IMG/VR virus record: IMGVR_UViG_3300008267_001663 | Coordinates: 1 to 31,960 of that record | DNA from: a virus | Length of the DNA: 31,960 nucleotides | Reading direction: 5' to 3' (one strand) | Part shown: positions 14,993 through 31,960 of the stretch, piece after piece | Numbering within the stretch: the first letter of the stretch is position 1 | Layout of the letters: every line of letters starts with the position of its first letter | Translations under genes and position numbers: made by a program | The notes under the pieces: generated by a model | The model's database searches: none | Told to the model about the DNA's origin: nothing | The model's input: only the letters and a program-made list of their open reading frames with translations

Positions 14993-15977
14993 CAACGGTA
15001 CAAGTGTTGTACTAAAGGGTGCAGTACAGTCGGTTGGTAACCTTCCATCTGTAGGCAATACGGTTGGTGACCTATATGTTGTATTAGACAGTGGAGATGG
15101 ATATGTTTGGGATGGAGCAGAGTGGGATAATGCTGGACCTATAAGGGGACCACAGGGTACACAGGGAGCACAGGGTGCTACTGGTTCACAAGGATTTCAA
15201 GGACCAAGAGGTTTCCAAGGATCACAAGGATTCCAAGGCACGCAAGGACCTCAAGGTATGCGTGGTACTCAAGGTTTTCAAGGTTCTACAGGAGCACAAG
15301 GATTTACAGGTCCTCAGGGAACGACTGGTCCACAAGGACCAACAGGACCACAAGGATTAACTGGTTCACAGGGACCTAATGGGCCGCAAGGTTTCACTGG
15401 ACCTCAAGGACCTACTGGACCAACTGGACCACAGGGACCTAACGGACCTCAAGGTCCTAACGGAGCTCAAGGACCTACAGGGCCTCAAGGTTTCACTGGC
15501 CCACAAGGTGTTCAAGGAGTTCAAGGCGTGCAAGGTCCTCAGGGACCTGGTAATGTTATAGGAACAGGAACAGTCAATACTGTACCTAAGTTTACAGCTT
15601 CAAGTACAATAGGCGATAGTGCTATAACAGATGATGGTACCACTGTAACATTGAATGGTAGAGCCTTAGGAGGAACATCTGGTTCGTTTAGTAGTAGTTT
15701 AACTGCATCTGCATTCTTTGAGTCTTCGAGTGTAGCAGGCAAGGACATAATAAAGACTAACCCATTAACTAATCTTAAATTAGATGTTATACAATACACT
15801 CGTAAGACAGATAAAAGTAAGGATGTAAGGTATGGTTACTCTGCAGAGCAAATACATTCATTGATGCCTGAACTGACAGACAAGGATGTAACCTCGGTTA
15901 AGTACTTAGACGTACACACGGTATTGATTGCTCAACTGCAACAAGAGATAAGAGAACTAAAAGCTAAATTAAAATAA
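14847..15977 (+). CDS. Tail fibre A, collagen-like shaft and S74-like C-terminus
   Basis: This frame is open from 14847 and has no credible own start before its collagen region, so it must be reached by a +1 shift from the 14741 frame. It reads: a short collagen-like stretch ([20 protein letters not shown]); a compact globular insert ([20 protein letters not shown], then W) of a type seen in phage fibres; a long Gly-X-Gln/Thr shaft; a link ([20 protein letters not shown]); and a C-terminus ending in [20 protein letters not shown] and a coiled coil ([17 protein letters not shown]). The last part matches the peptidase S74 / intramolecular chaperone domain that trimerises fibres and cuts itself off. 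The 5' S74 portion seems short, so whether cleavage occurs is uncertain. The fibre would recognise the host surface. Confidence 0.7.
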
Positions 15978-15978
15978 T

Positions 15979-16485
15979 ATGAGTTGGGCAGGAATAGTAG
16001 CTAATCAATGTGTATCACTTAATAATTTACAGGATGCTGTAGATACTTCTGTGTTTACTCTGAAAAATACTATACCTGCAGGACTAAAGCAAATAACAAA
16101 AGCCGAAGCTAATGACTACGTTAACATAGATGTTAGTTATGCTCCGTATGCAGCAAAGAGTAGTAATCAATTAGTAGTTAAGTCAGACTTAGTTGCAGGT
16201 ACACCTACATTTACTGAGTATCGTGCATATGGTTATGATGAATTTTTAAGGCAAGATGCTTGCCCATTAAATAACTTAACTGGTTCACCACAAACTGTTT
16301 ATGCGGAAACAAGCAATCCTTTTGCTGTAACTCAATTTTATAATACTCCAGATACAAACGATCCTTGGGATAATCTACCAGGAGATGGTTATGCGGTGAG
16401 CTTTTCTACTGCAGCTGATACAGCTACTAGATACGCTGCTTTTGGTACAACTACTGGGGCTATAAATAGTGTAATAGCTTGTTAA
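15979..16485 (+). CDS. Small adhesin-like virion protein (168 aa)
   Basis: The N-terminal ~75 residues (WAGIVANQCVSLNNLQDAVD; IPAGLKQITKAEANDYVNID; NQLVVKSDLV) belong to a recurring segment in Bacteroidota-phage virion proteins. The C-terminal ~90 residues (from base 16213: TEYRAYGYDEFLRQDACPLN through IAC) are nearly the same as the end of the first gene of the window, including the two cysteines. It lies one base after fibre A and 33 bases before fibre B. I infer an exposed decoration or receptor-binding module shared between two virion proteins. There is no enzyme motif. Confidence 0.6.
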   Translation: MSWAGIVANQCVSLNNLQDAVDTSVFTLKNTIPAGLKQITKAEANDYVNIDVSYAPYAAKSSNQLVVKSDLVAGTPTFTEYRAYGYDEFLRQDACPLNNLTGSPQTVYAETSNPFAVTQFYNTPDTNDPWDNLPGDGYAVSFSTAADTATRYAAFGTTTGAINSVIAC

Positions 16486-16518
16486 ATAGGATAAATAAAA
16501 ATATTAATAATATATAGT

Positions 16519-18048
16519 ATGGCAATTACTAACGAAGATCTGATCATTAAATTACAGCAAGGGAACTTATATTTTGCTAACTTGATGGATGAGTATGTAG
16601 ATGATTCTGTTTATTCATTAGATGTCAACCACGAGTTATTCGATAGAGCAACTTGTGTATTCTTAGTATTAACTGCCTTACAATTTCAACTTGATAGGGG
16701 TCTTGGTGGTTCAAATTCGGTTACTGAGGATTTATATAAAAAATTAAATTGTCTTGTTCCTGTTAACAATGAACCGATTAATTTTGATGAATCCCTTATA
16801 ATCCCTAATGTAGAGAATGCAATTACTGTACAAGGACCACAGGGTCCTCAAGGATACCCAGGCCCACAAGGTTTTCAGGGTCCACAGGGACTACAAGGTA
16901 ACCAAGGACCTCAAGGCTTCACTGGCCCTCAGGGTTTAACTGGTCCACAGGGTCCTGCAGGAACTCAAGGTCCTCAGGGTATTACTGGACCTCAAGGTAT
17001 TACAGGCCCACAAGGAGCAGCTGGTCCTCAAGGTGCTCAGGGTCCTATAGGCGTACAAGGTCCTCAAGGGTCTACTGGTGCTCAGGGTGTGCAAGGTACA
17101 CAAGGAACGCAGGGATTCCAAGGCACGCAAGGTTCTACTGGTCCGCAGGGAGTGCAGGGTATACAGGGTCCTATAGGAACTCAGGGTGTACAAGGTCCTC
17201 AAGGCTTACAGGGTGATCAAGGTGTTCAAGGTATTCAAGGTCCTGTAGGTCCACAAGGCTTCCAAGGTACACAAGGTTTCCAAGGCTTCCAAGGTTTCCA
17301 AGGTGATGTTGGTCCTCAAGGTGTGCAAGGAGTTCAAGGACCTCAAGGGTTCCAAGGTGATCAAGGCCCACAAGGTTTTCAAGGCGTACAAGGAACACAG
17401 GGTACTCAAGGGTTTCAGGGACCAACAGGTATTAGTTCTGGGTTGATTTATTATTTTAATGAGTCGCAGAGCTCACCTATATCTGGTTATAAGGTACTAT
17501 CTATTGAACCATCTGGTGCTGCAGAGCAAACTGTTGTAGCAACAACTAATGGAACTACACCTGTATTGGTTAGTGACTTTATATCTGATGAGATAGGTCA
17601 GCCCTTAATACCATTTGGAACTCAAAGATTCCATATACACTTTTTAAAGGCTAATTCAGGTAATAGTATTGAGGCATTTGCTGAGTTACAATTAGCTGAC
17701 TCAACTGGTACTTTAATAGGTTCTACTTTAACTACCAATGTAGCTTCTATTGGATATATAGACGCATCTACTCCAGTTGAGACATTATTTGATGTTGTCT
17801 TCCCTAGTATTGTTATAGACCCTACTGATAGGATGGTTGTTAGGTTGTATGTAAGGGAAGCATCTGGTAGCTCAAGTCATAATGTTACATTCTATACTGA
17901 GGGTACATCTAATTATTCATATGTAGTTACTAGTTTATCTGCTCCAGCTGGAGATCAGGGTCCTCAAGGTCCACAGGGTTGGAGCACAGGGTTTCCAAGG
18001 TACACAAGGCTTTCAGGGAGCTCAGGGAACGCAAGGATTCCAAGGTGA
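16519..18048 (+). CDS. Tail fibre B, 5' part (docking domain, collagen shaft, beta-sandwich)
   Basis: In order: a docking domain (1-~105), similar at its start to fibre A ([20 protein letters not shown]); a long collagen-like shaft of Gly-X-Gln triplets (from base ~16831, with GFQ, GPQ, GVQ and GTQ dominant); a globular beta-sandwich of ~165 residues (from [20 protein letters not shown] to [11 protein letters not shown]); and a second collagen block that opens [10 protein letters not shown]. At bases 17977-17983 the sequence reads GGT-T-GGA and the frame is lost; the last 20 residues (from [14 protein letters not shown]) are a shadow frame ending at 18048. The true continuation is the +1 frame at 17981-19576. 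The whole fibre would be ~1,020 residues. It would bind the host surface, probably with fibre A as an alternative or partner. Confidence 0.7.
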
Positions 18049-19576
18049 TATAGGTCCACAGGGACCAACTGGTGCACAAGGTTTTCAAGGAGACCAAGGA
18101 CCAACTGGACCTCAAGGGGTGCAAGGTGATACAGGAGCTCAAGGTGCTACAGGAGCTCAGGGAGTTCAAGGACCGCAGGGATTCCAAGGTGTACAGGGTT
18201 TCCAAGGTACTACGGGGGCACAAGGTGATACTGGACCGCAAGGATTCCAGGGAACTCAAGGCTTCCAGGGTACGCAGGGTGTACAAGGTCCACAGGGTGT
18301 TGGTACAATTACTGGTTCAGGTACAACAGGTACTCTTCCTAAGTTTACAGGTTCTACTGCAATAGGAGATAGTTTATTTACTGATAATGGAACTAATGGT
18401 GGATTTGGAGGAGCAAACTACTCAAGTGGAACAGATGTAAGGAGTTTCAATATTTCAGCTCCACTTTACGCAGGTTTAGGTTTTTGGGTAAACAATGTTT
18501 TGGCTGCAGATATTTTTGGTTATAGTGTTACAGGTAATTTAATTATAAGTGCAGACCCTGGTAATGTATTTGCTAGTTCTAATTTATTATTTAATGTAGA
18601 TGGTACTACAAGACTTACGATAGCATCCTCAGGAGCGGCTACGTTTTCAAATACAACTGCATTAGGTGTAGCGACACAAACTACAGCAGGATTATATAAC
18701 GGAGTAGCTACAAGTGCATCAGGTTCTTCATTCTTTACAAAAACAGGTTCATTAAGCAGTTCTTTTAGTAGTGGATTTGGTGTGGATGGAACATATGCAG
18801 GTGGTTTATCTCTTATTAATTTAAGAGCTATTGGAACAAGAACAGCAGGTGGCTACGCTTCTGCTTTTTCGTTTATACTTGATAATAATGGAGTTGATAG
18901 AACTCATGCTTCATTTAATAGTGATGGAAGTAGTAATTTTTATGGCGATGTAATATTGCCATATAGCAAATCATTAGCATTTAATTCTATATCAAATCAA
19001 TATATAACTGCTGATGCTTCAAATCTTTATTTAGGTACTGCAAATCTTGCAAGACTAACAATATCAACATCAGGAGCAGCTACGTTTAGTTCAGGAATAG
19101 GAATAGGTGGTGCAACTGCAACAACTGGAGGTATTCAATTTCCTGCTACACAAGTAGCAATAGCAAGTGCTAATAATTTAGATGATTACGAGGAAGGAAC
19201 TTGGACTCCTGGAATAAAATTTGCTGCATCTACTGCTGGTATAACTTACTCTGCACAAACAGGTACATATACTAAAATTGGTAGACAAGTTACAGTAAAT
19301 GGTTATTTTGCTTTATCAAATAAAGGTGCAGCAGCAGGTCAAGCAGTTATTACGGGGTTACCTTTTACAATAGCTAATACTGCAGGAAATTATACATCAG
19401 CAACATTGAGATTTAATGTTATAACCTATACAGGAACAGTAATGGGATTGGCAAATGTTAATGATACAACAATAGGGATGGAGCAAATAAGCGTAGCAGG
19501 GGTACTTACAGATGTTACCAATACCAATTTCGCAAACAGTAGTTCAATAGTATTATCACTAACATATTTCGTATAA
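17981..19576 (+). CDS. Tail fibre B, 3' part (shaft end and receptor-binding C-terminus)
   Basis: This frame has no credible start of its own; it is the continuation of fibre B in the +1 frame. It begins with more Gly-X-Gln triplets ([20 protein letters not shown]) and ends the shaft at about base 18300. The link [20 protein letters not shown] is closely similar to the one in fibre A ([20 protein letters not shown]). Beta-rich repeats follow ([31 protein letters not shown]), and then a C-terminal domain ([45 protein letters not shown]) of a type common at the tips of phage fibres, which lacks the S74 catalytic pattern. The tip therefore differs from that of fibre A. Confidence 0.7.
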
Positions 19577-29520: not shown

Positions 29521-29552
29521 TTTGTTTGGCAATGTTGAAAAACATATATTTG
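29521..29552 (+). promoter_or_regulatory. Bacteroidota-type promoter of the tRNA-like cluster
   Basis: TTTG at 29521-29524, a 20-base spacer and TATATTTG at 29545-29552 match the consensus TTTG-N19/20-TAnnTTTG. The expected transcript start (~29559) lies only about 3 bases before the tRNA-like acceptor stem at 29562, so the RNA would have almost no leader. Confidence 0.7.
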
Positions 29553-29561
29553 TTGAATAAT

Positions 29562-29696
29562 AGTCAGGTGGCGGAATTGGTAGACGCTAAGATGTAGTAT
29601 TAGATAACCCACGGAACGGTTATATCATTGAGGTAAAATCCGATAAGTAAATTCCTCGTAAACTAATACATACAGGTTCGAGTCCTGTCCTGACTA
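29562..29696 (+). tRNA. Leu-like tRNA with an expanded, non-decoding middle (135 nt)
   Basis: Acceptor arms pair fully (AGTCAGG 29562-29568 with CCTGACT 29689-29695, discriminator A as in Leu). The D-arm is canonical (GCG-GAATTGGTAGA-CGC) and so is the T-arm (ACAGG-TTCGAGT-CCTGT). Between them are 83 bases instead of ~31 for a class II tRNA, and no anticodon arm can be formed from a plain 17-base stem-loop. Instead GTATTAG (29597-29603) pairs with CTAATAC (29663-29669), enclosing ATAACC/GGTTAT (29604-29609 with 29618-29623, 8-base loop) and GAGG/CCTC (29630-29633 with 29654-29657). No CCA is encoded. A self-splicing intron is unlikely at this length. It could be a tRNA-like regulatory RNA, a decoy or a decaying tRNA. 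Confidence 0.6.
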
Positions 29697-29717: not shown

Positions 29718-29800
29718 CGCTAACTGAGGTTATGGTAAGTAGCCTATGGAGGTACGAACTCCACTGAGCAATCAGGTAGAATTAAGGGAACAGTTTGACA

Positions 29801-29816
29801 GCTTGGAAAGACAAGC
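29801..29816 (+). repeat. Hairpin directly before the second tRNA-like gene
   Basis: GCTTG (29801-29805) and CAAGC (29812-29816) pair over a GAAAGA loop; CAGT (29791-29794) and ACTG (29819-29822) can extend the stem and compete with the start of the next acceptor stem. It may guide RNA processing of the cluster. Confidence 0.4.
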
Positions 29817-29820
29817 ATAC

Positions 29821-29923
29821 TGTAGAGTGGTGGAACTGGCAAACACATCATCTCGTCTCGATGACGCTGATAAACCGAATAAATAAGGTCAGCTTGAAGG
29901 TCCGACTCCTTCCTCTACAGCCA
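29821..29923 (+). tRNA. Class II (Leu/Ser-type) tRNA-like gene with odd anticodon loop
   Basis: The acceptor pairs in full (TGTAGAG with CTCTACA; a C29820-G29920 pair could extend it), followed by G and an encoded CCA (29921-29923). D-arm: GTG-GAACTGGCAAA-CAC. T-arm: GAAGG-TCCGACT-CCTTC. Long variable arm with GCTGA/TCAGC (29866-29870, 29889-29893). The anticodon stem TCATC/GATGA is perfect, but the loop is TCGTCTC: the base at position 33 is C rather than the near-universal U, position 37 is a pyrimidine, and the nominal anticodon would be GTC (Asp), which does not belong to a class II body. So decoding ability is doubtful. Discriminator G resembles Ser, the D-arm resembles Leu. Confidence 0.6.
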
Positions 29924-31685: not shown

Positions 31686-31960
31686 ATGAAAAACATTTTA
31701 GGAACAACTGAGGATTTAGAACTCTTTAATAAAGAGGGTGTAATTGTTTATAAGTTTTATAAAACTTCCGAAGGACATTGGTATGAACAAACCTACGATT
31801 CAAAAGGTAGTCCTTTAACCTACAAAGATTCCAATGGATATTCACATGAATACACTCGAGATTCAAATGGTAACAAACTAACCTACAAAAATTCCAATGG
31901 ATATTGGCGTGAATACACTCGAGATTCAAATGGTAACGAACTAACTTATAAAGATTCCGA
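31686..31960 (+). CDS. Tandem-repeat protein, 21-residue repeats (cut by window end)
   Basis: The start ATG (31686) follows an A-rich leader. After ~30 residues (MKNILGTTEDLELFNKEGVI, then VYKFYKTSEGHWYEQTYDSK) the protein becomes periodic: LTYKDSNGYSHEYTRDSNGN, then a near-identical unit LTYKNSNGYWREYTRDSNGN, and a third begins at the end of the window. The unit is 63 bases. The DNA copies are almost identical, so copy number may change by slippage. The Y-x-R-D-S-N-G-N pattern resembles YD/RHS-type beta repeats, but I know similar short repeats in phage genes of unknown function. Direction is + and the end is not in the window. Confidence 0.65.
   Translation, partial: MKNILGTTEDLELFNKEGVIVYKFYKTSEGHWYEQTYDSKGSPLTYKDSNGYSHEYTRDSNGNKLTYKNSNGYWREYTRDSNGNELTYKDS

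Follow-up and report, generated by a model that had tools for sequence, protein, structure and literature searches.

tRNA-framed phage elements with exchangeable folded middle domains

Is a phage gene that keeps the outer arms of a tRNA but has no anticodon arm a tRNA in decay, a tRNA that is restored by splicing, or an RNA of another kind that makes use of the tRNA shape? The question is raised by a 135-nt element (element 1; 29562-29696, + strand) within a 31,960-bp IMG/VR virus record, the whole of which was analysed and is referred to here as the window. The basis of all results is sequence comparison on metagenomic contigs and assemblies, and from such comparison we give an even chance to the reading that element 1 belongs, as a single allele, to a large class of phage RNAs in which a constant tRNA chassis carries an exchangeable folded effector domain, the payload.

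Element 1 and its surroundings in the window

The acceptor stem of element 1, which is of the AGTCAGG type, is perfectly paired (AGTCAGG/CCTGACT; 29562-29568 with 29689-29695) and is followed by the discriminator base A73 at 29696, the last of the 135 nt. The D arm GCGGAATTGGTAGACGC (29571-29587) has a 3-bp stem GCG/CGC (29571-29573 with 29585-29587) and displays A14, A15, G18 and G19, and the T arm ACAGG-TTCGAGT-CCTGT occupies 29672-29688. An 84-nt payload (29588-29671) replaces both the anticodon arm and the variable arm; an anticodon arm with a 7-nt loop, U33 and a purine at 37 is absent from element 1. The payload begins with a 9-nt linker and ends with the dinucleotide AT, a 2-nt spacer abutting the T stem; between these a 7-bp inner helix GTATTAG/CTAATAC (29597-29603 with 29663-29669) encloses two hairpins, A (29604-29609/29618-29623) and B (29630-29633/29654-29657), whose complementary loops may be in contact through CGGA/TCCG (29612-29615 with 29639-29642). 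The minimum free energy structure and the centroid structure given by RNAfold are both identical to this fold, confirming the tRNA-like layout with perfect outer arms that had been proposed for this stretch in a sequence-only reading.

Folded alone, element 1 has a z score of -1.41, and 18 of 200 shuffled sequences fold equally well, i.e. the result is not significant for the single sequence; nor is a pseudoknot layout in element 1 (z = -0.67). Since the fold is mild in comparison to shuffles, the inner domain needs proof from comparison with homologues. The whole element recurs in four other contigs, with a payload that is identical in L267 and L269 and nearly so in L270 and L271, where the differences are confined to unpaired bases. 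As L267 and L269 have common flanks, the window payload is thus found in at least three other, unrelated contexts. The window payload displays no compensatory changes because these homologues are too similar. The recurrence bears out the earlier proposal that the middle is a real folded domain and, together with the 15-48 covariation and the hundreds of relatives described below, excludes simple decay. A degenerate pattern designed for more diverged homologues of the window payload gave 72 matches, with element context only in the four known homologues.

The tRNA and structured-RNA searches that the sequence-only reading had suggested recover little at this locus. Element 1 is missed by ARAGORN in its default mode and by Rfam at the gathering score, and the sole Rfam match to its region at a loose threshold is a chance snoRNA. 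When introns are allowed, ARAGORN reports a "tRNA-Phe(aaa)" whose anticodon stem is mismatched and which arises only because the program splits the insert; it also proposes a tRNA-Leu that was rejected as implausible, again because its anticodon stem is mismatched.

Element 1 is preceded by a Bacteroidota-type promoter (29521-29552, + strand) consisting of a -33 TTTG (29521-29524) and, after a 20-nt spacer, a -7 TAnnTTTG element, TATATTTG (29545-29552), that lies 9 nt before element 1. A TAnnTTTG -7 element is typical of Bacteroidota promoters, and on the basis of its position transcription in the window should begin a few bases before A1. The same promoter is found before elements in L124 and L391-L394. 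Among the collected elements TAnnTTTG starts between -17 and -11 in 21 of 273, whereas 60 other upstream positions together account for 15 starts, so that per position the motif is about ten times as frequent near the element as further upstream. All 225 ordinary-size tRNAs in these loci lack it. The promoter type, together with a partial likeness to a tRNA array of the Tenacibaculum phage pT24 that is considered below, suggests that the hosts are Bacteroidota.

A second tRNA-framed RNA, element 2 (29821-29919, + strand), has the acceptor stem TGTAGAG/CTCTACA, a hairpin TCATC-TCGTCTC-GATGA, a long helix GCTGA/TCAGC resembling a variable arm and the T arm GAAGG-TCCGACT-CCTTC. It is conserved in L124 and L393 and has another middle in L394/L392, and its acceptor stem covaries among TGTAGAG/CTCTACA, TGTAAGG/CCTTACA and TGTAGGG/CCCTACA. 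The hairpin in element 2 and in L392 and L394 is anticodon-like, with a TCGTCTC or TTGTCTC loop that places GTC at the anticodon position, and element 2 may therefore be a tRNA of changed function on a long-variable-arm frame. Just before it is the hairpin GACAGCTTGGAAAGACAAGC (29797-29816, + strand). Hairpins of the form GAC-stem-GGAAAGAC-stem, with changing stem pairs, are found just upstream of elements in the window and in L124, L121, L111, L108, L110, L093 and L168, possibly as a separate conserved RNA motif. Both window elements are flanked by a RecE/YqaJ-like exonuclease gene and by a small gene that is followed by an Erf-like annealing gene. Elsewhere in the window, 15258-18048 and 18119-19576 encode collagen-like GPQG repeat proteins in several overlapping frames, probably tail fibres, and at the window end (31726-31929) a short repeat unit NLECIHANIHWN... 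in reverse frame, with repeated matches in L124, looks like a tandem repeat.

Frame and payload across the class

The exact 26-nt 5' half of element 1 is present in at least 119 IMG/VR viral contigs, whereas across 84,980 species genomes of bacteria and archaea the 26-nt pattern is held by no more than three contigs; the whole frame is absent from 50,697 records of cultured phages. In contigs with the 26-nt 5' half, the 3' half is near-constant and the middle is fully variable, for total lengths of 73-169 nt. The collection was extended by a second scan seeded by the 3' half and by a de novo search across all fetched loci, which contain 520 distinct tRNA-shaped sequences, 260 of them of the AGTCAGG type with a non-canonical middle. 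The collected loci yield 289 elements in about 208 payload families; 50 of the 208 have two or more members, and the Chao1 estimate is about 575. In the 20 records that were searched whole, all copies within a record are on the same strand and are mostly clustered, and as many as 16 are found in one 135-kb contig. Apart from the T arm of pT24, searches of plasmids and cultured phages returned short segments that belong to ordinary tRNA genes. In the locus L168 (1300-4957, reverse strand) ~3.6 kb of DNA that appears to be almost wholly noncoding is packed with ordinary tRNAs and with tRNA-shaped elements of several acceptor types, AGTCGGT, TGACTAT and CCATTCT among them.

The exact AGTCAGG/CCTGACT acceptor stem is found in 237 of the 289 elements, a conservation that is in part by construction since the seeds used to collect the elements already specify some of the frame; some members show compensated changes on both sides that keep the pairing, e.g. 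GGTCAGG/CCTGACC. Less biased evidence comes from promoter-selected sites, described below, from members without both seeds (57 after dereplication, 48 of them AGTCAGG), and from covariation of the 15-48 pair. Counting one element per payload family, A15-T48 is found in 170, G15-C48 in 8 and a mismatch in 5 (Fisher P = 1.6e-10), and the same rule holds in the ordinary tRNAs of these loci; A15 goes together with T48 and G15 with C48, and thus the tertiary pair is maintained. Among 256 dereplicated members 87% have a T immediately ahead of the T stem (1.33 bits) and 79% have a T at acceptor position -1, while other positions of the middle hold about 0.1 bit or less each. The reading of the frame as a real tRNA elbow, a chassis, is well supported by these comparisons, and with hundreds of relatives and 15-48 covariation the earlier suggestion that the outer tRNA parts are kept for a reason has held up.

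Two rival explanations can be weighed at this point. That it is a decaying tRNA gene or an assembly chimera appears scarcely credible, and has been largely refuted already. All sightings of the class are in metagenome assemblies, and shared frame ends could in principle mislead assemblers; however, payloads are conserved in independent contigs, positions 15 and 48 covary, and D-arm variants travel with their payloads so that alleles have only ~10 nt in common on the 5' side, which is too short for assembly jumps. That it is a functional tRNA, able to decode once it has been spliced, with the payload as an intron or an extended arm, we consider very improbable. Most members do have a leucine-type D arm, ARAGORN proposes introns, and the AGTCAGG members L013 and L074 have a clean 7-nt anticodon loop (UUU). 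A strict anticodon-arm test was nonetheless passed by only three collected elements of this acceptor type, two of them AGTCAGG; the payload spans the distance from D stem to T stem, leaving no exon anticodon arm in the window or in most members; and Rfam gives no group I or group II intron match. Moreover the same phages carry ordinary tRNAs, in some a full set, and hence the elements of the class are not the decoding tRNAs of these phages.

The middles fold better than sequences shuffled with dinucleotide content kept (mean z = -0.69, n = 237). Over the whole class there is also a modest but significant excess of a pseudoknot layout (z = -0.56, SE 0.08). Strong T-proximal helices leave a 2-nt gap to the T stem in 35 of 60 cases, as in the window. 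Similarity links between payloads number 128, versus 4 in shuffled payloads. Helix covariation is seen in the CTATACGTA family, of which four divergent members keep a 7-bp helix 100% paired even though both bases differ in three of its pairs, and in which the flanking unpaired motifs CTATACGTA, CGTTA and GGGCG are invariant. Helix replacements are visible also in the families {L190, L102, L037} and {L169, L103, L195}.

Exchange of payloads between phages

The nearest relative of the window, L124, is 97% identical to it over 952 bp upstream, including gene and promoter, and 98.6% identical over element 2, yet the payload of element 1 has been replaced. Comparable relationships are found throughout the collection: in 100 element pairs the payload is >75% identical and both flanks are <65% identical, in 74 pairs a flank is conserved and the payload is <62% identical, and in merely 7 pairs are both conserved. 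Payload conservation across unrelated flanks is 78-100%. Some of the identity between alleles could stem from recent transfer and not from selection.

Two sites were sampled by their upstream (promoter) sequence alone. Directly behind TATATTTGCAT an AGTCAGG element is present in 56 of 56 contigs of a phage group that is about 90% identical around the site; 16 payload alleles are distributed among the 54 contigs that could be read, sometimes as a tandem pair of elements with a constant linker. At the promoter site of the window itself, six of six phages have tRNA-framed elements, from about five payload families, and L391 and L392 have other acceptor stems there. Judged from these comparisons, payloads are cassettes that are exchangeable within a constant frame, among related phages and at the same genome position. 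Random variation of the middle had been put forward beforehand as a sign of decay or misassembly. Different middles do occur at the same site, but each alternative is itself conserved and is found in other phages, and for this reason the variation is not random drift.

Noncoding sequence next to the elements contains further conserved stretches. ACACGT...TAGTATGCCC...ATGAGAAA is found in linkers after elements in L017, L041, L072 and L271, and ACCCATAC...GATGGGCTAAGT...GGGAGTAGAATGC in L031, L040, L075 and L048; stems in both apparently change together between loci, and these are probably further undescribed RNA families.

Cassette behavior this clear might be thought to need no RNA product at all, the frame being simply a homology block or recombinase site of a selfish or recombination module that shuffles neighboring genes. 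The RecE-like exonuclease and Erf annealing protein encoded alongside the window elements would fit such a module, as would the finding that the same gene can sit after different elements (L110, L029). However, it is the interior of the element that is swapped and the flanking genes that stay, and covariation of the 15-48 tertiary pair and of payload helices amounts to constraint at the RNA level; we assign this explanation a low probability.

The frame could alternatively be a processing or stability signal for RNase P and RNase Z, a form of tRNA punctuation or 5'-end cap for which the payload is neutral filler. In agreement with this, the elements are intergenic and never within open reading frames of 100 aa or more, they are often at or near the start of transcription, and they end in an A-C-N-A 3' tail like that of the ordinary tRNAs of the same phages. 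Neutral filler would not be expected to be conserved across unrelated flanks as described and to fold better than shuffles, nor would its unpaired sequence be expected to remain fixed as a helix covaries, and the AGTCAGG acceptor is conserved far beyond what RNase P or RNase Z should require. This account is accordingly improbable as well, and the reading of element 1 as a chassis with an effector payload is retained in what follows.

Possible function and relation to known RNAs

Effector function, processing and charging of these RNAs are features that we infer, as follows. The RNA would be transcribed from its own promoter and trimmed by host tRNA enzymes, i.e. RNase P, RNase Z and possibly the CCA-adding enzyme, to give a stable small RNA in which the payload would act as effector domain and the chassis would provide processing and stability. 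The payload targets would differ between hosts or rival phages, with a factor of host defence or a competitor phage as the likeliest candidates; for a target that varies among hosts or competitors one would expect sites that are always filled, replacement of alleles between close relatives, and strong conservation within each allele. The shared frame may be where recombination exchanges the payloads, perhaps through phage enzymes of the RecE/Erf type such as those encoded alongside. The payload families are so diverse that a single common effector function is not obvious. When payloads were searched for sense and antisense targets in the same, co-sampled, set of phages, there was no clear excess over shuffles beyond unmasked homologous elements, and a small surplus at 30-34 bits.

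A tRNA-like RNA might instead act as a decoy that soaks up or jams the host enzymes that attack tRNA in abortive infection, with different alleles matched to different enzymes. The sequence-only reading had raised this idea, and beside it that of a charged regulatory RNA, which is likewise possible. Such a decoy would be expected to keep a true tRNA elbow and acceptor stem and to lack the anticodon loop that is cut by anticodon nucleases, both of which are found, and allele swapping is consistent with an arms race. Yet nucleases whose recognition depends on the anticodon loop would have no such site to bind here, and a decoy based on the frame would have no need for hundreds of payload families; we regard it as unlikely, though not negligible.

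Several known systems share features with the class. Class II tRNAs, including tRNA-Leu, resemble element 1 in the acceptor stem, the D arm, the T arm, A73 and the 15-48 pair. Unlike them, the elements have no anticodon arm, the payload varies in sequence and length, and one acceptor sequence is common to members regardless of payload or D arm. tmRNA, to which the sequence-only reading had compared the element, also combines the acceptor and T arms of a tRNA with a different domain where the anticodon arm would be, and some payloads fit a pseudoknot layout. The comparison stands as a loose analogy only: element 1 keeps the D stem GCG/CGC, has T-A rather than G-U at pair 3-70 and is far shorter, and neither Rfam nor ARAGORN -m matched it to tmRNA; no tag reading frame was found. 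Integron attC sites were considered solely for their constant ends and variable middle.

Small intergenic cassettes of T4-type phages, which consist of a T4-type early promoter and a simple stem-loop, are spread by recombination between phages. The elements are similarly intergenic, promoter-linked and spread by recombination, and differ in having a Bacteroidota-type promoter, a tRNA fold and hundreds of payload families in a constant frame.

GOLLD and ROOL are phage-encoded structured RNAs of unknown function that occur near tRNA islands (PMC12286853). They are much larger, have a single conserved fold each and are not built on a tRNA chassis whose payloads are swapped; in sequence there is no relation, and their Rfam family models have no match in the window. 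A GOLLD RNA (298.8 bits) is found at a contig end near AGTCAGG elements (L117, 3644-4051).

Among cultured phages a partial counterpart is the Bacteroidota phage pT24 of Tenacibaculum (L275, LC168164), which has an array of tRNA-shaped genes with aberrant middles (190743-193768) annotated as tRNA-Undet, tRNA-Sup and tRNA-Pro, together with a further tRNA-shaped piece, not annotated, at about 1011-1086 in locus coordinates. One T arm with acceptor 3' end is 92% like the AGTCAGG frame, but pT24 has no AGTCAGG/CCTGACT element. Experiments could possibly start from this phage.

No description of such elements was found in a search limited to open-access papers, and a class of exchangeable RNA parts on a tRNA frame does not seem to have been described so far. 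Phage tRNA arrays contain hundreds of structured RNA families that have been overlooked, being either dropped or mislabelled by the usual tRNA finders and by Rfam. Payloads that are conserved yet swapped on a constant tRNA chassis would constitute a new form of modular RNA evolution, one that opens tests of whether phages direct RNA effectors at host defence or at rivals; the chassis itself might serve for the expression of stable RNAs. More tentatively, phages of Bacteroidota could draw on a shared stock of several hundred RNA effectors that circulates horizontally, all of them on the same tRNA chassis and held at dedicated promoter-driven sites that are always filled but differ in allele between close relatives. 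If this is true, it would be an arms race based on RNA, with targets that are modular, its alleles comparable to those of anti-defence or immunity-type protein genes.
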